Shown: one piece after another, positions 5,400-47,882 of the stretch
How positions within the stretch are numbered: the stretch's first letter is position 1
Layout: each line of letters opens with the position of its first letter
Source of the DNA: a virus
DNA length: 50,924 nt
Virus record (IMG/VR): IMGVR_UViG_3300036790_000288
Span: 1 to 50,924 of that record
Direction: 5' to 3' (one strand)
Position numbers and translations under genes: made by a program
Notes under the pieces: generated by a model
Told to the model about the DNA's origin: nothing
The model's input: the letters and a program-made list of their open reading frames with translations, nothing else
Databases searched by the model: none

Positions 5400-6955
5400 T
5401 GCAAAACCACCTCTTTGAGCGCGAAGCAGCACCCCGGATGCGACCGCTGCGTCCCCGGCAGGCGGAAGCCATCCGGCAGGTGCGTGATGCAATCAAGGAA
5501 GGCCATCGCCGCATCGTCCTGCAGGCGCCCACGGGCTTCGGGAAGACGCTGGTATCCGCGCACATCATCGGCGCCGCACTGGCCAAGGACTCCAGACCGC
5601 TCTTTACCTGCCCGGCCATCTCGCTGGTCGATCAAACGCTAACAGCCTTCGAGAAAGAGGGCATCCGGGATATCGGGGTCATGCAGGCTTCCCACGTGCG
5701 CACGAATCGTAGCGCGGCCGTCCAGATCGCCAGCGTGCAGACCTTGATACGCAGGGCAGCGCCGGATGTGGACTTCGCGCTGATTGATGAGTGCCACGAA
5801 GGGTATGACGGGCTGGACGCGCTGCTCGATTCGGACGAGTGGAAGAACAAGATTGTCATCGGCCTGTCAGCTACTCCGTGGGCGAAGGGAATGGGGCTCA
5901 GGTGGACAAAGCTGGTCATCGCGGCCACCATCAATGACCTGATTGCAGACGGCCACGCTACGCCGGCAGTGATTTACGGGCCGGAGAAGGATGTCGATCG
6001 CGGGTCAATCAAGATCGTCAAGGGCGAGTTCGACGAAGCTGGGTCTGCTGCCGCGATGAGCGATGACTCAATCGTCGGTGATGTCCTGAAGGAGTGGAAA
6101 GAGAAGTCCCCCCGCGAGAAGACTTTCGTGTTCTGCGTCAACCGGGCGCACGCCCAGGTGCAGATGGAAGCGTTCCTCGATGACGGAATCCCGTTCGGCT
6201 ACATCGACGCCAACACTCCGCAGGGGACGCGCGACAGCGAGAAGGGAACCCGGAAGCACGCATTCGCGCAGATGCGGAACGGCGAGATTGCCGGCATTGC
6301 CTCCGTCGGCTGTCTGATCCGTGGGGTGGACGAGGACGTGCGGTGCATCGTGGATCTGGCCTTAACAAAATCGGAGACGCGCCACGTGCAGAAGTGGGGC
6401 CGCGGCGTGCGGACAGCGCCGGGCAAGGAAGTGCTGATTGGACTCGACCACGCCGGCAACAACGCAGCGTTGGGGCTGTTCACGGACATCTTTCATGGCC
6501 ACCTCGACTCTCGAAAGCCTGGCGAACGGGGCGAGTCTTACAAGGACGATTACAAGCCTGCCAAGCCCCGGAAGTGCGCCAAGTGCCACAACCTGATCCC
6601 GCCGAAGCTGCGCAACTGCCCCTCGTGCAATGAGCGCGTCGCCCTGGTCACCGGCGTGACCGTGGTGGACGGCAGGCTGGTCGAGATAGGCTCCGGGCCC
6701 AAGATCGACATGAAAGAGCGCCAGGAGTGGTTCAGCGGCTTCCTGTGGCTGGCGAAGCAGAAGAACCTGAAGGATGGCTGGGCAGCCTACAGCTACAAAG
6801 AGAAGTTTGGCGAGTGGCCGAAGCATCTGCGGGCGCGAGCCAAGAAGCCATCCGAAGCGGTTGCGGAGTACGCGAAGCAGCGGCGCGCGGAGTATCTGGC
6901 GAAGGTTGCGGTGCCGGTAGCGGTTCCACCACCACATGAGGAGATATCGGCATGA
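5399..6955 (+). CDS. SF2 DEAD/DEAH-box helicase with C-terminal zinc ribbon (518 aa)
   Basis: Helicase motif I APTGFGKT lies at residues 43-50, motif II DECH at 130-133 and motif III SAT at 157-159; the second RecA-like domain follows with motif VI-like GRGVRTAPGK near residue 340. Near residue 395 a CAKCH...CPSC pair forms a zinc ribbon. Phage enzymes of this type unwind or translocate on DNA during replication, recombination or transcription. The start is TAATG-coupled to the KTSC gene. No replicative DnaB-type helicase or DNA polymerase is seen in the window, so replication probably relies on host machinery. Confidence 0.92.
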   Translation: MQNHLFEREAAPRMRPLRPRQAEAIRQVRDAIKEGHRRIVLQAPTGFGKTLVSAHIIGAALAKDSRPLFTCPAISLVDQTLTAFEKEGIRDIGVMQASHVRTNRSAAVQIASVQTLIRRAAPDVDFALIDECHEGYDGLDALLDSDEWKNKIVIGLSATPWAKGMGLRWTKLVIAATINDLIADGHATPAVIYGPEKDVDRGSIKIVKGEFDEAGSAAAMSDDSIVGDVLKEWKEKSPREKTFVFCVNRAHAQVQMEAFLDDGIPFGYIDANTPQGTRDSEKGTRKHAFAQMRNGEIAGIASVGCLIRGVDEDVRCIVDLALTKSETRHVQKWGRGVRTAPGKEVLIGLDHAGNNAALGLFTDIFHGHLDSRKPGERGESYKDDYKPAKPRKCAKCHNLIPPKLRNCPSCNERVALVTGVTVVDGRLVEIGSGPKIDMKERQEWFSGFLWLAKQKNLKDGWAAYSYKEKFGEWPKHLRARAKKPSEAVAEYAKQRRAEYLAKVAVPVAVPPPHEEISA

Positions 6956-12998: not shown

Positions 12999-13099
12999 AG
13001 TGGTTCTTGACCCGCGCAGAGGATAGGCCACGTAGGCTTCTGGCGGCAAAGATGGTCGTGGCATTAATTGTGATCGTAATTTTAGAGTTAACATGAACA

Positions 13100-13127
13100 T
13101 TGTACAAGACTTACGGACTGCTACACT
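13100..13127 (+). promoter_or_regulatory. Promoter of the integrase gene
   Basis: TTGTAC at 13100-13105 and TACACT at 13122-13127 with a 16-base spacer resemble a sigma70 promoter. The predicted transcription start near 13134 leaves a 30-base leader with CAGGAG before the ATG at 13165. This argues against the upstream in-frame ATG at 13093 being used. Confidence 0.6.
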
Positions 13128-13164
13128 CCCCGCGTGCAATGGGGTCAACGGGTCAGGAGTATCA

Positions 13165-14388
13165 ATGGCTCGAAGACGGTACCAGCGGGGTCAGTTGATC
13201 CGCAGTGGAGACAACTGGTTAGGACGGTGGCGTGAGGATGTTGAAGACGACACCGGAGCAGTGAAACGGGTGCATAAGAAGGAGGTCATCGGCACCGTCG
13301 AAGACTTTCCAACGAAGCGGCTTGCGGAACGCGAATTGCAGCGCAGGCTCGAGCCAATCAACAACGTGGAGTACCGGCCGCAACGGCGCGTCACTTTCGA
13401 AGCGTTCTCGCAGAAGTGGCTGAAAGAGGTCTTGGTGCATCAGAAGCGGTCCAGCCAGTCCAGCGCGCGCAGTCATGTCCGGGTGCATCTTGTCCCGGCG
13501 TTCGGCGCGATGAGCCTGGCGGACATCCGCATGGAGCAGGTGCAGCAGTTCGTCACGAAATGTGCGAAATCTGCAAAAACAACAAAAAACGTTGTCGTCA
13601 CACTGATGTCCATGTGGTCGACCGCTCAGGCTTGGGGCTACGTCCAGCACAACCCGTTCCCCCGCGGCGCGTCTGGGAGGCTCCTGCTGAAGTTGCCGGC
13701 GGCCGCACCGGGTGAGACGTACCACTTCACTGTGGAAGAGGCTCTGGCGATCATCGACAAGGCTCAGGGACCGTGGAAGACGTTCTTCCGCATCCTGGCC
13801 GAGACGGGGATGCGGCCGGGCGAGTGTGCCGGGTTAAGGGTCGAAGATGTCGGGGAATGCAGCTTGCGGGTCGCACAATCGGTGTGGGGCCAGCAGGTGC
13901 AGACGCCGAAGTCGAAGGCCGGTGTGCGGACGTTCGCTATCTCGGCGACGCTGGAAAAGGAAATTGGAGAGGTGACTAGTGAAATGCATAGAGGTTGCAA
14001 TCGCAGCGATGTCGTTGGGGGTGGGTCTGTGCATGATCGTTCTGGGGATACTAGACTCCTCTTCACCACGGAGACCGGAAGACCGCTAAGCATGGACAAC
14101 TTTCGCCAGCGGGTGCTGAATCCAATCCTGGCAGAGTTGGGTATAGACAAGAAGCTGGAGCGGCTGAACATCGCACGCTGCGGCAACTACGCCTTCCGGC
14201 ACATGAACGCCACGCTCATGGACACCCTCAACACGCCCATGAAGACGCGGCAGAAGCGGCTGGGTCACGCGCAAATCGAGACCACGCTGAAACACTACAC
14301 GCACGCTATCGACGCGGACGACCGGATGGCAGCAGACCGGATCGGCGCGATCATGGCGTCCAAACAAGAGATGGAGGCTGTGCAATGA
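13165..14388 (+). CDS. int: Tyrosine recombinase, phage integrase (407 aa)
   Basis: An N-terminal arm-binding part (MARRRYQRGQLIR, then RWREDVEDDTG), a core-binding domain, and a catalytic domain with ETGMRPGECAGLR (first Arg), YAFRHMNATLM (second box; the usual first His is Tyr here) and LGHAQIETTLKHYTH (final His and nucleophilic Tyr) identify the family. It would insert the phage into the host by recombining attP with attB. A tRNA 3' segment 300 bases downstream is the probable core site. The start at 13165 is preferred because of its promoter and CAGGAG site. Confidence 0.95.
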   Translation: MARRRYQRGQLIRSGDNWLGRWREDVEDDTGAVKRVHKKEVIGTVEDFPTKRLAERELQRRLEPINNVEYRPQRRVTFEAFSQKWLKEVLVHQKRSSQSSARSHVRVHLVPAFGAMSLADIRMEQVQQFVTKCAKSAKTTKNVVVTLMSMWSTAQAWGYVQHNPFPRGASGRLLLKLPAAAPGETYHFTVEEALAIIDKAQGPWKTFFRILAETGMRPGECAGLRVEDVGECSLRVAQSVWGQQVQTPKSKAGVRTFAISATLEKEIGEVTSEMHRGCNRSDVVGGGSVHDRSGDTRLLFTTETGRPLSMDNFRQRVLNPILAELGIDKKLERLNIARCGNYAFRHMNATLMDTLNTPMKTRQKRLGHAQIETTLKHYTHAIDADDRMAADRIGAIMASKQEMEAVQ

Positions 14389-41834: not shown

Positions 41835-42367
41835 GCGATGCCCTCAATCTTCTTGCCTACGCCAGCCAGCGGGGATGTGGACTTGGGGGCCATCTCAACC
41901 TGTAGCGCCGTGGTCCGGGCAGTGGGGTCGAATGAGGTCGCTATCATGCTCAGGAAGTTGTGCTCCGTGTGCTGGGCGCGCTTCAGGATGCGCTCGTTCA
42001 TCTCCACATCGTTCTTCGAGTAACCCTGCGCCTTGCGGAGTCTCGACCGAATCTGGAGCTGCTTCAATTCTTCGCACTCGCGGAGGTGCTGCTGCACCTT
42101 TTCCAGCTTCTTGCGCTCCCAGTGCTGGCGGGAGATGATGAGCGAGATTTTCTCGATTTCCTTCGCCCCAACCGCTTCGCACCGCTTCCAATGGCGGTAC
42201 TCCGGCCAGCTCTGGAGTTGCGCTTCGGTGATGCGCGTGTCCGCCGCCGGCTGGATCTCACCCTTGGGGCTGACCCAGTAGACAAAAACGTTGTCCTTCG
42301 TCGACGTCGCGCTGGAGCGCACCACGCCGGGGGCTCTTACCGCCGCTGCATTCGGGAATCGAACCAT
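41831..42367 (-). CDS. Basic helical protein between terminase and portal (178 aa)
   Basis: Mostly charged helices (KIEKISLIISRQHWERKKLEK-like stretch, EMNERILKRAQHTEHN). No signature. It overlaps the terminase end by 31 bases and the portal start by four, so it is translated with them. A packaging or portal accessory role is likely from position. Confidence 0.65.
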   Translation of the reverse strand: MVRFPNAAAVRAPGVVRSSATSTKDNVFVYWVSPKGEIQPAADTRITEAQLQSWPEYRHWKRCEAVGAKEIEKISLIISRQHWERKKLEKVQQHLRECEELKQLQIRSRLRKAQGYSKNDVEMNERILKRAQHTEHNFLSMIATSFDPTARTTALQVEMAPKSTSPLAGVGKKIEGIA

Positions 42368-44496
42368 GCCTGACCTGGGATTACGATAGTTTGAACTGCT
42401 GGACCCGTCATGACAACAATACCGCTATCTTTTGGAGATTCATACCGCATTTTCGCGCGTTCTATCATCACGGAACTCTGATTCATCGTCCAATATGCCT
42501 GCGCGTCGGCAAAAACACGGTCATTGTGACCTCCAGACTCGTGATCGACGCGAGTTTTGCCCGATGCGGTCACTCTTTGCTCCAAATCCTGAATTTCTTC
42601 CGCAAGCCACTTTGACTTCACTTCCGCCCAGCCATTCTCGATGGCGTACTGGTAGGCGGAAAGCAGTAGCGGCCGGCTCCATTCGTTCGTGAACCACCCG
42701 ACTCTGCCCCTTTTCCCTACCCGCTCTTCGAAGGTCTTGCGATCGAATCCTCCGCCCCACTCATGCCACCTGCGAAAGCCGAGCTGCCGCGTCATGTGGT
42801 ACGGAAGATCCCCAAACTTGCGCTTCATCTCGATGCAGAGCTTTGGGTGTGGCCGTTCAAGGCAAGGGCTGTAGAGCGACGCCAGCGCCGCGATGTAGGC
42901 GTATATCTCGGCTTCTGAAATCGAGTCGGAGGCGAACTCTGCTACCTGCACAGAGGGCTCCTCTGGCGACCCATGACGTCTCACGGAAGCAGCCGTTCTG
43001 TCCCCGCCCACGCCGGTGCCGGTATCCCATCCGATGGAGTAGTCGTAGCCCGGTTTCCACTCCTCCCAGATGAGGAACTTTTCAAGCGGATCGAAGGTCT
43101 TCGCGTCCTCCCGTTTCAGCGGGACGAACATCCATTCCAGCGCAGTCCCTTTTTTCGAGTACCAGGTGGTCTTCAACCGCGGCGGCGCGTCCGGCCCGTA
43201 CCAGATGCGCTCCGATTTCGGCTCTCTCCGCTCGGGAATGTCCTCCCCGACAAGCATGTACACCGGGGTGGTTTCCAACGGCTCCACGGTGCTATTTACT
43301 ACCTGAATTGCGGCCTCCGATAGCACCTTGTCGTTCTCGCCAAGCAGCGCTTCGTAATCGTCCGAAGGCATCTGGCGATACCATGACTTTTCGACCCGTC
43401 GTCTCTTGTGATCTTCGTGGTTGAACTCCCAATACCACTGCTGATCGAGAGGCATTGACCAGTCCGTCCCGAGAATCTTCGAAAGCATCGGGGTGTTGCG
43501 GACATAGGCTTCCGCGCGGTGGACGTGATCTACCGTGTCGTCGTTCGGCGCCCACCCTGCAGGCATGGGGAACTTCTTTAGCCAGGCCGTGCCGGGGTAC
43601 AGTTCAGGCGTTGTGTGCCATGGCAGGAAGACGGGCAGGAACTTCGCCTTCCCCGCCCAGTAGTTGTCCCGGTTGGCGATCCACTGCTCTTTCCACCACC
43701 ATGCGGACTTGTGCGAAGCGTCTCCTGTCGACTCGAGCATGACGACGAGCTCCGCGCCCTCGTGCAGCGCCTTGAACAGACCTTCGTCCAATTGCCCTGT
43801 CGGGTCGGTGAACTGGCTCACCTCGGAAAGATGGACGAAAGTGGGCGTGGTCCCTTGCCCCATGCCGCCGCGCATCGAGCCCGGCTGCACCATGATGAGC
43901 GAGCCGATGCGGGAGAACTCGAGCATGGCGCGATCGGAGGCCACTTTGGCCCTTGTCTGGGTAGGTGGCAGCCACACCGGGATCTGGTCGAGCGCCAGGG
44001 TCATCATGCCGAGCATGATTTGGGTCTTCTGGCCGTCCGCGGAGCCGATCTGCGCCGCGACACCGGGTACGAACTGGCTGTGATGCGTGGCGATCCCCTC
44101 CGCCAGGGTTGAAATTCCAAGCTGGCGAGCCTTCAGGATTTGCAGCATCTTCGAGACGCCCATGCGGTCCAACTCGCAGAGCATTTGCCACATGATCCAC
44201 TGGCCCTGCCGGAAGGTGAAGCGGGCTATCTTGTTCTTGAATTTGATGTAGTAGTAGCGGGTCAGGAAGTAGTGGCAGGAAGCCGCGCACATGGCGCGCT
44301 CGTTTGCGATGAATCGCTCCTCGGCCTTGGTCAGCCTGCGCATCTGGTTGATGTCGCCGTTCTTCTCTACGACAAAGACCTCTGCGAGGCGCTTCGACCA
44401 CAGGTCCACTTCTTCGATAGAGTGGGGGCGCGGCCGCCAGCCAAACTCCTCAGCGAAGCGGTCCAGCTTTGCCTCTATGACCTCGGGAGCGAACAC
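42337..44496 (-). CDS. terL: Large terminase subunit (719 aa)
   Basis: The ATPase part shows ILKARQLGISTL (adapted Walker A) near residue 120 and VVMLESTGD (Walker B with catalytic Glu) near 250. The nuclease part has YSIGWDTGTGVGGDRT and a terminal HNDRVFADAQA with acidic residues for metal. It cuts the replicated DNA and pumps it into the head. The length is high for the family because of inserts. Start is GTG at 44496; ATG would lose the beginning. Confidence 0.93.
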   Translation of the reverse strand: MFAPEVIEAKLDRFAEEFGWRPRPHSIEEVDLWSKRLAEVFVVEKNGDINQMRRLTKAEERFIANERAMCAASCHYFLTRYYYIKFKNKIARFTFRQGQWIMWQMLCELDRMGVSKMLQILKARQLGISTLAEGIATHHSQFVPGVAAQIGSADGQKTQIMLGMMTLALDQIPVWLPPTQTRAKVASDRAMLEFSRIGSLIMVQPGSMRGGMGQGTTPTFVHLSEVSQFTDPTGQLDEGLFKALHEGAELVVMLESTGDASHKSAWWWKEQWIANRDNYWAGKAKFLPVFLPWHTTPELYPGTAWLKKFPMPAGWAPNDDTVDHVHRAEAYVRNTPMLSKILGTDWSMPLDQQWYWEFNHEDHKRRRVEKSWYRQMPSDDYEALLGENDKVLSEAAIQVVNSTVEPLETTPVYMLVGEDIPERREPKSERIWYGPDAPPRLKTTWYSKKGTALEWMFVPLKREDAKTFDPLEKFLIWEEWKPGYDYSIGWDTGTGVGGDRTAASVRRHGSPEEPSVQVAEFASDSISEAEIYAYIAALASLYSPCLERPHPKLCIEMKRKFGDLPYHMTRQLGFRRWHEWGGGFDRKTFEERVGKRGRVGWFTNEWSRPLLLSAYQYAIENGWAEVKSKWLAEEIQDLEQRVTASGKTRVDHESGGHNDRVFADAQAYWTMNQSSVMIERAKMRYESPKDSGIVVMTGPAVQTIVIPGQAWFDSRMQRR

Positions 44497-44499
44497 GGG

Positions 44500-44769
44500 T
44501 TAGAATGGCCCGGTGTTCGGCTTGCAAAGTTGCAAGGCAATCGGCGTGAATGGGCCACCAAACGTCAGTTCGGTGATGACGAGGTCCGCACCGTCCGCAA
44601 TAGCCTTCCGCTCGTCGTCGGACATGCGGAAGCGAACGGACATCCCCGACAGTCCGTCGGAATATCGGACGGGAAGTGCCACAATGGGTGCGTAATCCGG
44701 CTGGTCGAGCGCAATGACCCGCTCCATCTCTACCTCTGCTTCGGTCCATACTGGCGATACGGAATCCAT
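44500..44769 (-). CDS. Small protein upstream of terminase (89 aa)
   Basis: Acidic at first (EAEVEMERVIALDQPDY) with a beta-rich second half (ELTFGGPFTPIALQL). Not recognised. It overlaps the gene before it by one base and ends four bases before the terminase start, so it belongs to the packaging operon. Confidence 0.65.
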   Translation of the reverse strand: MDSVSPVWTEAEVEMERVIALDQPDYAPIVALPVRYSDGLSGMSVRFRMSDDERKAIADGADLVITELTFGGPFTPIALQLCKPNTGPF

Positions 44770-45347
44770 TACTCCTCCTCTTCGTCGTCTTCTGGCTCAA
44801 GAATCTGCGGTGCCGGCAACTGCTTTGCGCCCATGGCCCTACTGGCTCGCATCAGGAAGTCGTCTGCCCCCTCCAGCATCCCGCCCGGCCCGTCGTCATC
44901 ACCATCCGGCAACTCGTCCGGCTCCTTCTGCGATCCCGGCAGGTTGATGATCGTGCCCTTTGGCGTCGGCAGCACCCTTGCTGCTTTGTAGATGTGCTCG
45001 CGGCTGGCGTGGCCCTTGGCCTTTCTGGCGTCTTTGATGGTCACTCGCATGATCGAAGGAAGGGCGTCGAGGATCATGGCTCCGATCGACTCCCGAGACT
45101 GAATCATGTTCGCGCCGTTATAGACCTCCCAAAGTCTCCTGGGGGTGATCTTGCAGGCCATCGCCAGCGCTTCCAGCCCAATCAGGTTGCGGTTGGCCGG
45201 CGTCAGGGTGTCCCACAGGGCCACCACTGCGCGGGAAGCCTCATCTGGGTCCGCTCGCAGCACTTCGATGACGCGCGTTGGCAGGATGCCGCATTGCTTC
45301 AGTAGAGGGGCAATCTGGGGCTGCGCGGCAAGCTCTTCGGAATCCAC
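44769..45347 (-). CDS. Probable small terminase subunit (192 aa)
   Basis: Helical N-terminal part (ILPTRVIEVLRADPDEASRA, KITPRRLWEVYNGANM) suggests DNA binding; the protein ends in an acidic run (EPEDDEEEE). Such a protein immediately upstream of the large subunit is usually the small terminase. The start is uncertain: GTG 45347 gives 192 residues, while the open frame runs on to 45560 and would overlap another gene by 190 bases. Confidence 0.6.
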   Translation of the reverse strand: MDSEELAAQPQIAPLLKQCGILPTRVIEVLRADPDEASRAVVALWDTLTPANRNLIGLEALAMACKITPRRLWEVYNGANMIQSRESIGAMILDALPSIMRVTIKDARKAKGHASREHIYKAARVLPTPKGTIINLPGSQKEPDELPDGDDDGPGGMLEGADDFLMRASRAMGAKQLPAPQILEPEDDEEEE

Positions 45348-45366
45348 CTTCAGGCGTCGAAGCAGC

Positions 45367-45567
45367 TCATCCCTTCGGTTTCGATTCTTTGCTCCCGAAG
45401 GCCTTCCTGAACTCTTCGCGGTCCTTTTCCTCGCGCGAGTACTTCGCGTTGCCGAGGGTTGCCGGCTGGCGCTCCCGCGTTTCGTTGATCGGCGCGAGGT
45501 GTTCCGCGATCCGCTCGAGGGCCACGACTCCACGTTCGATGAGTTTGGCGGTTTCGGCATCTAGCAA
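45367..45567 (-). CDS. Small helical protein (66 aa)
   Basis: TTG start at 45567 with GGAGG six bases upstream (no ATG available), overlapping the upstream gene's TAG. Helical and charged (ETAKLIERGVVALERIAEHL). Not recognised; could be a packaging accessory. Confidence 0.6.
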   Translation of the reverse strand: MLDAETAKLIERGVVALERIAEHLAPINETRERQPATLGNAKYSREEKDREEFRKAFGSKESKPKG

Positions 45568-45803
45568 GCCACCCTCCGCAGCGAGCCATTGTCGTCATAG
45601 CGGTACTTCAGTCTTCCACCTTCACTCATGCGCAACTCGTACAGGCGCCTGCGGGACTCGCGGCGGCCGGAGGTGTGATACCGGTGGGGCGTGTTGACGC
45701 TGGCGCGATCGTACTTGCCGCCCAGATCACGAAGCATTCTCAGGAACACCACCAGATTGCTGGGAACGTCCATCGGTGTGGGTAGTGGACTATGTGACAT
45801 CAT
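45561..45803 (-). CDS. Small basic protein (80 aa)
   Basis: ATG at 45803 overlaps the stop of the gene before it (ATGATG). The C-terminal half is rich in Arg and Tyr (RESRRRLYELRMSEGG, RLKYRYDDNG) and may bind nucleic acid. No family recognised. Confidence 0.6.
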   Translation of the reverse strand: MMSHSPLPTPMDVPSNLVVFLRMLRDLGGKYDRASVNTPHRYHTSGRRESRRRLYELRMSEGGRLKYRYDDNGSLRRVAC

Positions 45804-46204
45804 GCCTTCACCTTCACTTTTCTCCGGGCTTTTCCGCCACGGCCGTCCGAGCCTTCAACGGTCAGCTCCATTCCTCGCGCCTGGCGCTCCTCGTTCGGGT
45901 CACGGCTCTCGAAGTGGGAGGTTTCCTGCGCTATTTCTGTCTCTTCGGCCACTGCGTCAAGGTCGGCAGCGCTCGGCAAATCGCCCTTCTGCGCGTATCC
46001 CCATGCCAGCGTCTCTCTCGCTTCCGTCGCGGTCTCTCCCGACCTCCGCAGCCTGATTTTCACCTGAAAATCGACCGCAAACGCCGCGTATTCCTTGTTC
46101 CCGCTCAGGGGTGACAAACCGCGCATCCTAGCCTGCAACTCCTCGGTGACGATGTGGATGATTTCCGAAGCCTCAAAGGGCACATTTATCGCTATTTCAG
46201 GCAC
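45800..46204 (-). CDS. Unrecognised protein (134 aa)
   Basis: Starts MPEIAINVPFEASEIIH. First half mixed alpha/beta with FAVDFQVKIRLRRSGE; second half charged and possibly disordered, ending GGKARRKVKVKA. It overlaps the HTH gene by eight bases. No signature; co-transcribed with the packaging genes. Confidence 0.6.
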   Translation of the reverse strand: MPEIAINVPFEASEIIHIVTEELQARMRGLSPLSGNKEYAAFAVDFQVKIRLRRSGETATEARETLAWGYAQKGDLPSAADLDAVAEETEIAQETSHFESRDPNEERQARGMELTVEGSDGRGGKARRKVKVKA

Positions 46205-46454
46205 TCTGCTCCTCCTTTTTGAACATCATGCAATCCGTCATCGGGAAGGGCATCCCGGACGGCGTGAAGCCTATTCCGTGCTCGCTGCACAGCTCCGCAA
46301 GGGCCTGTCTTTTGGATGCTTTTGGCACCGCGCGGCCCTTTTCCCAGCCGGTCAGCGTGTTGGCGCAAATGTCGAGCCGGGTTGCGAAGGACTTTGAGTC
46401 CATGCCCAGAAGGGCCCTTATCACCCGGATTCTCTGAGCATCGTCAAGGATCAC
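46197..46454 (-). CDS. XRE-type helix-turn-helix regulator (85 aa)
   Basis: GTG at 46454 follows AAGGAG by six bases and overlaps the previous stop (GTGA). Residues about 10-60 form an XRE HTH: RVIRALLGMDSKSFATRL, then CANTLTGWEKGRAVPKA, the recognition part being NTLTGWEKG. Phage regulators of this size often act as late or lysogeny switches. An exact palindrome (46497-46507) lies 43 bases upstream, and the second genome motif (46516-46529) lies just beyond, so this gene may regulate or be regulated through both. Confidence 0.8.
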   Translation of the reverse strand: MILDDAQRIRVIRALLGMDSKSFATRLDICANTLTGWEKGRAVPKASKRQALAELCSEHGIGFTPSGMPFPMTDCMMFKKEEQSA

Positions 46455-46759
46455 GCCCAACTCCTTAGCAGTTCTTCAGCCTTCGCCTTCGCGGCTGACA
46501 GGCTGTCATTTTCAGGTGCGCGCACGCACTCGGCATCTGTGGTCCGGGAGGCAGGATTCGATTCCTGCAACGGGGCGCTACTCGCGTATAGCTGATCCCC
46601 ACCAGCACTCTGGCGCGTCTCTATTGCACCACTCCCCGTCTTTTTGGGCCTCGAACTGCGCCACAGCGGATTCTGACACTGCGGGCACTTCTTAGGCACC
46701 GCTTTGCGCGGGGTCCAAGTATGACCGCATGTCGAATGTGGGCAGGTTCTCGGCTCCAT
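46451..46759 (-). CDS. Zinc-ribbon protein (102 aa), paralogue of the gene at 49681
   Basis: CPHSTCGHTWTPRKAVPKKCPQC-type motif (two Cys pairs around a Trp) forms a zinc ribbon at residues 4-30, followed by LWRSSRPKK. The gene at 49681 has the same layout. The ATG at 46759 is only seven bases from a TACGAT -10 box, with TTGCGA 17 bases further, so the transcript is probably leaderless. It overlaps the HTH gene's GTG. Confidence 0.7.
   Translation of the reverse strand: MEPRTCPHSTCGHTWTPRKAVPKKCPQCQNPLWRSSRPKKTGSGAIETRQSAGGDQLYASSAPLQESNPASRTTDAECVRAPENDSLSAAKAKAEELLRSWA
46497..46507. promoter_or_regulatory. Palindromic operator-like site GACAGGCTGTC (copy 8)
   Basis: Exact copy 43 bases upstream of the HTH gene start (46454) and within the C-terminal part of the zinc-ribbon gene. 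Ten bases further is the second genome motif. Confidence 0.65.
46516..46529. promoter_or_regulatory. Palindrome GTGCG-N4-CGCAC (copy 5)
   Basis: GTGCGCGCACGCAC lies inside the zinc-ribbon gene, nine bases from copy 8 of the main palindrome. The only place where both motifs lie side by side. Confidence 0.6.
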
Positions 46760-46766
46760 CGGGGTA

Positions 46767-46795
46767 ATCGTAACCGCTCGCCTGATAAATCGCAA
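46767..46795 (-). promoter_or_regulatory. Late operon promoter, probably leaderless
   Basis: On the minus strand TTGCGA (46795-46790) and TACGAT (46772-46767) are 17 bases apart, and only seven bases separate the -10 from the ATG at 46759. The transcript should begin at or within a base or two of the start codon and run through the HTH and packaging genes. Confidence 0.65.
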
Positions 46796-47173
46796 TGATT
46801 TTATGGTGGTGGAAATCGTTTAATCCGCATCCCCTTCGATGCTTTTGTTCTTCCGGTACCGGCACTGATGCACGCGCGGGGACACCTACGGTTTTGGAGA
46901 GAGAGAGTGGATTCAGGCGGAGCCGGGGCGCTATGCGTGGGGTTAAATACAGGACGTTACGCCTGCACATGCCCCCGTCACCGTGTTCCAGATGGGCTTG
47001 GTGCGGCCCATCCCCGCCGTTTTCGGTCGGGCGCTGATCACTCAGCGGGAAGGGCTGCAAAACCGGGAAAACAATTCGCGCGTTTGAGCTTTACCTGCGA
47101 CGGGGCACACGAATACCAGTTCCGTGACGCACAGCGAATTGTCGGGAAAAGATGATTTTGCATGACTCGACGC
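46796..47173. other. Gene-poor stretch (378 bp)
   Basis: I see no convincing gene here. Open frames on both strands are Arg-, Pro- and Gly-rich readings of GC-rich DNA with no clear ribosome-binding sites. A purine run (GGAGAGAGAGAG) is near 46900. The right end leads into the small RNA promoter. TGACTCGAC occurs at 47163 and again at 47240 within the small RNA. Confidence 0.5.
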
Positions 47174-47202
47174 TTGAAAAATAGCATCGAATTACGCATA
47201 AT
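47174..47202 (+). promoter_or_regulatory. Promoter of the predicted small RNA
   Basis: TTGAAA at 47174-47179 and CATAAT at 47197-47202 with exactly 17 bases between them. Nothing protein-coding follows before the terminator at 47293, so the expected product is a short RNA starting near 47208. Confidence 0.7.
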
Positions 47203-47207
47203 GCAAG

Positions 47208-47331
47208 TGCGGGGTTCGGCCGCAAACCCTGCCCATGCGTGACTCGACATCCGAATGGGAGCCCCGCACAACGTTTGCGTCACTTGACCTCCCCGCCTAC
47301 CCTCTGCCAAGACAGGTAGGCGGTCTTTTTT
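47208..47331 (+). ncRNA. Predicted free-standing small RNA (~124 nt)
   Basis: The transcript from the promoter at 47174 would begin with GTGCGGGG (47207-47214), which pairs with CCCCGCAC (47262-47269); inside this, TTCGG (47215-47219) can pair with CCGAA (47251-47255). A later CGCAAAC (47221-47227) could instead pair with GTTTGCG (47273-47279), giving two competing folds. It ends in an intrinsic terminator. No known RNA family is recognised. It lies on the plus strand between oppositely oriented operons. Confidence 0.6.
47293..47331 (+). terminator. Intrinsic terminator of the predicted small RNA
   Basis: CCGCCTAC (47293-47300) pairs with GTAGGCGG (47316-47323) around a 15-base loop, followed by TCTTTTTT to 47331. 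It is the best intrinsic terminator in the window, and points rightward with no protein gene before it. Confidence 0.85.
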
Positions 47332-47360
47332 GCGACAGGCTGTCATTTACGCGCTAGTAT
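47332..47360 (+). promoter_or_regulatory. Promoter with operator for the exported protein gene at 47367
   Basis: TAGTAT (47355-47360) ends six bases before the ATG, and the best -35 match is GCGACA (47332-47337), 17 bases away. The palindrome (47334-47344) covers the -35 and the start of the spacer, so a bound protein would block it. The transcript would be leaderless. Confidence 0.6.
47334..47344. promoter_or_regulatory. Palindromic operator-like site GACAGGCTGTC (copy 9)
   Basis: Exact copy three bases after the small RNA terminator, covering the -35 region of the promoter for the gene at 47367. Confidence 0.75.
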
Positions 47361-47366
47361 TGCCGC

Positions 47367-47882
47367 ATGAAGACCCTTCGCCTCTCGCTCACACTCCTCT
47401 CGTTTCTCGCACTCGGATGGCTCTCCGTGGGCTGCGCACACGCCCAGGTGGCACCCACAAATCACCAGGTCGCGCTGAGTTGGACCGCGCCGGCCGCTTC
47501 GGGGTCGTGGGCAGGATGCACCGCAAGTGCGCCATGCACCTACGTGGCATCGCGGATCACGCTGGCGACAGGCACGACGTCCTGCCCTGCGGCGAACGTG
47601 ACCACGCCCAACTATGCCCCTTTGAATACGGCATCTCCAGCGTCGACCACCACGTACACGGACACGAGCGCTTCGGGACTGACCACCTGCTACATCGTGC
47701 AGACGGAGCAGGGAAGTGCGGTCAGCGGTCCATCGAACGTGGCTGGGCCTTTCGTAGTGCCTGCGAACCCTCTGGCGCCATCGCTGGCCGGTAGCGAGGC
47801 CAAGGTGCAGTCGATGCCGCTACCCACGGGCGACGCTGCTGCGCCAATCCTTACCGCAAGACTCGAAGGCCGTATCAGGTAG
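47367..47882 (+). CDS. Exported fibronectin-like protein with signal peptide (171 aa)
   Basis: The first ~27 residues (MKTLRLSLTLLSFLALGW, then GCAHA) are a Sec signal; AHA-QV is a plausible cleavage site and the SVGC stretch is a weak lipobox. The mature part looks like a fibronectin type III or Ig-like domain (HQVALSWTAP, STTTYTDTSASG, CYIVQTEQGS) with four cysteines. It probably acts outside the cytoplasmic membrane. Its own operator-bearing, leaderless promoter and isolation on the plus strand suggest expression in the lysogen, perhaps as a surface-altering gene (inference). Confidence 0.75.
   Translation: MKTLRLSLTLLSFLALGWLSVGCAHAQVAPTNHQVALSWTAPAASGSWAGCTASAPCTYVASRITLATGTTSCPAANVTTPNYAPLNTASPASTTTYTDTSASGLTTCYIVQTEQGSAVSGPSNVAGPFVVPANPLAPSLAGSEAKVQSMPLPTGDAAAPILTARLEGRIR

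Follow-up and report, generated by a model that had tools for sequence, protein, structure and literature searches.

Between the leftward terminase operon and a rightward gene at 47367-47882 in an IMG/VR virus record of 50,924 nucleotides (50.9 kb, here called the window in its entirety) lies DNA for which the original prediction, made from the letters alone, proposed a small RNA (sRNA) with its own promoter and terminator. Is there such an RNA gene, and on what would its product act? That related phages carry the entire unit as well argues for the gene. Comparison of its copies suggests a divergently encoded antisense sRNA that would tune, and most likely repress, the late operon by pairing with the 5' end of the operon's leader, a reading to which we assign a probability of roughly 60%. 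Besides the terminase, the window encodes a lysozyme-type protein and a tyrosine integrase (13093-14388). Coordinates of the features discussed are collected in Table 1.

Table 1. Features of the sRNA locus and of the divergent operon, in window coordinates.
Feature	Position	Strand	Remarks
Leftward operon, start	42337..46795	-	zinc-ribbon protein, HTH protein (46197-46460), ... terminase large subunit (42337-44496)
Leftward operon leader, predicted	46762..47171	-	~410 nt; ~330 nt conserved in L002, L158 and L126
Conserved leader block CGAATTGTCGGG	47135..47146	-	plus-strand reading; leader RNA CCCGACAATTCG; kept in the leader of relatives
Predicted leftward transcript, first 13 nt, GUCGAGUCAUGCA	47159..47171	-	complementary to sRNA loop
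Promoter, sRNA	47174..47202	+	TTGAAA (47174-47179), N17, CATAAT (47197-47202); exact match
Promoter, divergent terminase operon	47178..47206	-	TTGCAT (47206-47201), 17 nt, TATTTT (47183-47178), TG before the -10; overlaps sRNA promoter
Predicted small RNA	47207..47331	+	~120 nt, from just past the -10 to the T-tract; likely start 47207-47209; homologous units in relatives
Outer stem of sRNA, GTGCGGGG/CCCCGCAC	47207..47269	+	arms 47207-47214 and 47262-47269
Antisense segment TGCGTGACTCGAC	47236..47248	+	in sRNA apical hairpin
Intrinsic terminator	47293..47331	+	perfect 9-bp stem (47293-47301/47315-47323); tail TCTTTTTT (47324-47331)

The proposed promoter, TTGAAA-N17-CATAAT, was found exactly where it had been placed. 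As a sequence match it does not go beyond chance, with three promoter-like sites in 10.9 kb against 2.4 expected, of which it is the best (10/12). The terminator ~90 nt beyond CATAAT had been called the best in the genome; it is indeed strong, but by hairpin energy it ranks third in the window, behind two stronger hairpins with broken T-tracts. The outer stem folds as predicted, the window sRNA is more stable than its shuffles (z = -2.4, 3/200), and relatives preserve the stem with changed bases (GTGGGG/CCCCAC in L003; TGTTCG/CGAACA in L126 and L156). An alternative pairing of CGCAAAC with GTTTGCG, also proposed, is present in the window but absent from the aligned homologue in L002. In agreement with the statement that no protein can be read between promoter and terminator, no plus-strand ORF runs through the unit; a protein reading of the 102-aa ORF on the minus strand (47038-47346), antisense to the sRNA, was dropped when its frame proved not to be conserved. 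Rfam 15 covariance models, at gathering and permissive thresholds, gave no family for the sRNA, the only match being a tRNA in L004, and GenBank phages showed no DNA similarity to the region.

The palindrome described past the terminator, GACAGGCTGTC, occupies 47334-47344 and recurs at 46497; of the relatives inspected, L002 alone shows a similar sequence, GACATCCTGTC (~5754-5764), in this position. The longer sequence GACAGGCTGTCATTT occurs twice in the window (46497-46511 and, right past the sRNA terminator, 47334-47348) and is a possible candidate operator of a phage regulator. The rightward gene 47367-47882 beyond the terminator encodes a signal-peptide protein. Small, strongly hydrophobic ORFs of 52-56 aa lie just past the sRNA terminator in three relatives (L002:5797-5967, +; L005:1972-2130, -; L126:6360-6521, -) and have little sequence similarity to one another.

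An equivalent unit was present in seven related phage sequences, divergent from the terminase/structural operon wherever flanks are present. L002, reached through the protein of gene 47367-47882 (74% identity), aligns with the window unit over promoter, GCGGGG/CCCCGC stem and terminator; its promoter equivalent is TTGAAT-17-TATTGT with TG before the -10, its sRNA homologue is more stable than shuffles (z = -2.8), and the terminase in its record is 32% identical. Terminase searches led to L003, L004, L005, L126 and the distant L127, with the unit upstream of the terminases in L003, L004 and L005 and a shorter version in L126. Searching with the conserved leader block as a DNA pattern retrieved L144/L149, L140/L156 and L158, the last of which keeps the leader and has no recognisable sRNA terminator. 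Terminases of the unit-bearing phages are ~30-75% identical, and the sRNA promoters of several relatives are weak to moderate (7-9/12). A scan of IMG/VR with a 15-base promoter pattern was too loose, returning unrelated sequences among the matches listed, and a terminase search of GTDB genomes found no relative. The nearest cultured phages are Tunturi_1/2 (terminase and portal ~29%), in which the unit is absent; they infect Tunturiibacter (Acidobacteriota), from which we infer that the window's host is probably an acidobacterium as well.

Several of these records have peculiarities of their own. The terminase large subunit frame of the L126 record (G005:10388-12541) contains one TGA and one TAA, perhaps through a broken gene or an assembly error. 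At L149:3053-5878 the terminase matches as two pieces ~600 bp apart, which suggests an inserted element, for example an intein or intron. The L144 record (G007:2078-2275) holds a frame for a TnpB-type (PF07282) protein of 635 aa.

On the opposite strand, back to back with the sRNA promoter, lies a consensus match for a promoter of the terminase operon. Its -35 is TTGACA in six of the eight sRNA members (L002, L149, L004, L005, L126 and L156) and also in L158; the exceptions are the window, with TTGCAT, and L003, where none is clear. A TG-extended -10 is common to all eight, the best example being TTGACA-16-TATTAT with TG in L002. The predicted starts of sRNA and leader are ~38 bp apart. Conserved leader sequence extends over L002:5269-5591, L158:10745-11075 and L126:6815-7144 (L002 and L158 are 68.6% identical over 296 nt) and includes a hairpin with compensatory changes (GACAGCAUACUGUC versus AACGGCAUACCGUU). 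The leader had no Rfam match, and in the window the terminator scan detected no minus-strand terminator within it; it may be an independent structured RNA element. Near the leader's end, by the operon's first gene, the motif TTTCCACCACCA (leftward reading; CTACCACCACCA in L004) occurs in the window (~46802-46820, -) and in L002, L003 and L004. Seven phages have the first AUG of the leader at +14 to +17, and the window has it at +9; in 10-16% of shuffles a first AUG fell between +9 and +18. ORFs in the leader vary in length (8-58 aa) and sequence, with a hydrophobic stretch only in that of L005.

What links the two predicted transcripts is a short stretch just left of the sRNA -35 that, in each phage, is repeated in the apical hairpin of the sRNA, and that differs between phage lineages. 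The copies are TGCATGACTCGAC/TGCGTGACTCGAC in the window (12/13 identical), GTGGGCTTCGAC twice in L002 (12/12), TTCTTTTGCCTAAGCAC/TTCTTTCGCCTAAGCAC in L005 (16/17) and ACTTGTTCTAGACAAT/ACTTGATCTAGACAAT in L004 (15/16). Of 500 shuffles, four reached the copy score in the window and none did in L002, L005 or L004. By ungapped identity L003 and L126 are unremarkable; they stand out by base pairing, which in L003 involves bulges and G-U pairs. When ~90 kb was scanned for a terminator preceded by repeats spaced 55-110 nt apart, only these loci were returned. In most phages the predicted leftward start coincides with the edge of the left copy; the leader would then begin GUCGAGUC..., GUCGAAGC... or GCUUAGGC... 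and the sRNA loop would be its antisense. In all eight members, the pairing segment of the sRNA stays more unpaired than the remaining body (0.49-0.67 versus 0.25-0.49). In the window alone, two further 13-nt complements that tolerate G-U pairs occur by chance. A third, imperfect copy of the segment, TGCGTCACTTGAC, with two mismatches, lies at 47276-47288, between the sRNA hairpin and the terminator.

Specificity of the pairing was assessed with RNAduplex energies between leader positions +1 to +30 and the first 75 nt of every sRNA, the +1 being set only by the opposite promoter. The phage's own partner was best in eight of eight rows and six of eight columns, and the true pairing ranked 1 of 40,320 permutations. 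Later leader segments showed no specificity in the same test (ranks of 21,554 for +31..+60, 22,222 for +61..+90, 32,003 for +91..+120 and 9,952 for +121..+150, each of 40,320). A second conserved site, at which the leader would pair with the sRNA's 5' stem, had been hinted at in duplex plots and was rejected, +31..+60 being without partner specificity. In a six-phage matrix the own partner was best in all rows and columns, and a cruder test on an unbiased 100-nt region still ranked the true pairing 33 of 40,320. Since L002 and L149 are mutually close, as are L126 and L156, the eight sequences amount to about six independent lineages. The earlier suggestion that the RNA may regulate phage mRNAs is thus upheld in a specific form, in which the loop has antisense complementarity to the predicted start of the transcript of the divergent terminase operon.

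An alternative view of these matched copies is that they are two DNA operators bound by a phage regulator, for example the HTH protein, one over the leftward start and the rightward -35 and one within the sRNA gene, with the RNA incidental. Shared operators too would look like direct copies, and would change together if repressor specificity had diverged between phages; the HTH protein is of Xre type, is encoded early in the window's leftward operon and has relatives in L003, L004, L005, L126 and L156. However, most copies are not palindromic, their spacing (57-87 bp) is without helical phase, and the paired copies contain indels (25 gap positions over eight alignments); moreover, the apical hairpin of the RNA always contains one copy, and the second copy ends where leftward transcription is predicted to start. 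Counting of G-U-compatible changes against the reverse leaned toward RNA pairing (9 versus 5) but was not significant (p = 0.21). We therefore do not take this count as proof of RNA pairing, and the operator model is retained as unlikely rather than discarded. That unrelated promoter-like, hairpin and repeat matches have merely come together in GC-rich intergenic DNA would suit the chance-level score of the sRNA promoter taken by itself, but is highly improbable given that the whole arrangement recurs and given the partner permutation test.

Other roles for the RNA are also less probable than antisense control of the operon. The sRNA might limit a primer or initiator RNA, the long leader, in RNA-primed replication control of the ColE1 type or of the type of RNA-based prophage origins. 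Such origins are known for mycobacteriophage prophages (PMC7157519), the leader is long with ~330 nt conserved, and several unit-bearing records have no recognised integrase. Yet RNAI overlaps RNAII, whereas the sRNA diverges from the leader; the leader continues into the structural operon, and the six records tested gave no ParA-type matches and two weak ParB_N matches, so that we consider replication control decidedly unlikely. An ordinary leader of gene 47367-47882, with the terminator as attenuator, is suggested by the window, where the terminator ends 36 nt before that gene's ATG. In L002 a separate small ORF (5797-5967) intervenes, and L005 and L126 have other right-hand genes, whereas the sRNA unit remains linked to the leftward operon; because the right-hand genes change, we set this reading aside as very unlikely. 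The least probable of all is RNA-guided DNA binding, in which an effector protein would use the loop as a guide to its own promoter region in the fashion of TldR or tracr-L. The loop sequence and DNA at the RNA's own promoter are indeed same-orientation repeats, but the match sits in an internal hairpin and tolerates indels. The window has no IS110-type transposase domain, and a TnpB-type protein, the feature expected of an element with a TnpB/TldR guide RNA, was found in only one of six records, which is not the window; both effectors were rejected as not general.

Antisense control of the late operon is thus the reading that we favor. The DNA itself shows the unit and its recurrence, consensus matches for both promoters and, in each phage, a matched pair of loop and leader; from there, we infer that both RNAs are transcribed and form a duplex in vivo, as well as which way regulation goes and at which step it acts. 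The ~120-nt sRNA would be transcribed from a promoter back to back with, and overlapping, that of the terminase/structural operon, and the apical loop of its first hairpin would pair with the first ~13-16 nt of the leader, or across an interrupted ~25-30 nt in several phages. Pairing at the 5' end would most likely repress late-operon expression. With the sRNA covering the region just before the leader's first AUG (+9 to +17), initiation there could be blocked; the duplex could also be exposed to RNase, or premature termination of an untranslated leader could be favored. The overlapping promoters would add mutual exclusion, so that sRNA and leader could act as a switch. Collectively, the comparison points to an RNA brake on particle production, although activation, or a leader that serves as a sponge, may apply in place of repression.

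If this is correct, almost unstudied and probably acidobacterial phages have an antisense RNA control point on the packaging and structural operon, whose pairing segment changes between phages with its partner following. The natural co-variation predicts which bases to swap, making pairing, direction of control and any immunity specificity directly testable. As to the role in lysogeny that the original prediction also thought possible, a tyrosine integrase was found in the window and in L002's record only; neither this type of recombinase nor the serine type was recognised in four further records, 50-54 kb long, that carry the unit or its leader. A tentative extension, which we rate as unlikely though worth stating, is an RNA-only immunity-group system in phages of Acidobacteriota. 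Loop and leader start would form a diversifying lock and key, and a resident phage would silence only superinfecting phages of its own type, acting directly on the packaging/capsid operon.

By analogy, the phage sRNA would work like IstR-1, OhsC and OrzO or like the c4 RNA of phage P1, while failing a defining feature of each. In the IstR-1/tisB, OhsC/shoB and OrzO/zorO pairs, the sRNA is divergent from its target and has 18-21 nt of complementarity to the target 5' UTR (PMC3919570, PMC4147584). The phage sRNA gene is likewise divergent from its proposed target, with the terminase operon on the other strand in every member whose flanks are available. Its complementarity is 12-17 nt and nearly continuous in four phages, shorter than 18-21 nt, and interrupted over 25-30 nt in others; it lies at the extreme 5' end of the leader and differs in sequence between lineages. 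Moreover, the targets of IstR-1, OhsC and OrzO encode small hydrophobic toxic peptides, whereas the ORFs of the phage leaders are not consistently of this kind and the predicted target is the leader of a structural operon. ColE1 RNAI/RNAII is similar in that a long structured RNA is met by a short antisense RNA against its 5' part, but RNAI overlaps the primer RNA gene, while the genes for phage sRNA and leader do not overlap and a structural operon lies downstream. OOP, sar and aQ of lambdoid phages are precedents for phage-encoded antisense control of phage genes (PMC12197685); they lie opposite their target genes, unlike the divergent phage sRNA with its short, interrupted complementarity.

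Two further phage RNAs bear on the proposed mode of action. The CI RNA of satellite phage P4 is an antisense RNA that pairs with leader sequences and acts in termination (PMC4825925), a likeness that extends to pairing with a leader and to premature termination as a possible outcome. CI RNA is processed from the transcript that it regulates, on the same strand, and targets seqA and seqC, whereas the phage sRNA is on the opposite strand with one main target segment found. The c4 RNA of P1 and P7 is a phage antisense RNA with target-complementary sequences probably in loops, and is tied to P1/P7 heteroimmunity (PMC12197685); the phage sRNA shares with it a loop complementary to the proposed target. 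c4 RNA has strand and transcript in common with its target, the antirepressor (ant) mRNA, while the phage sRNA has a divergent promoter and its own terminator, and its predicted target is the leader before the zinc-ribbon, HTH and terminase genes. The tentative immunity reading given above is modeled on c4 RNA, with the difference that the direct target here would be the packaging and capsid operon.
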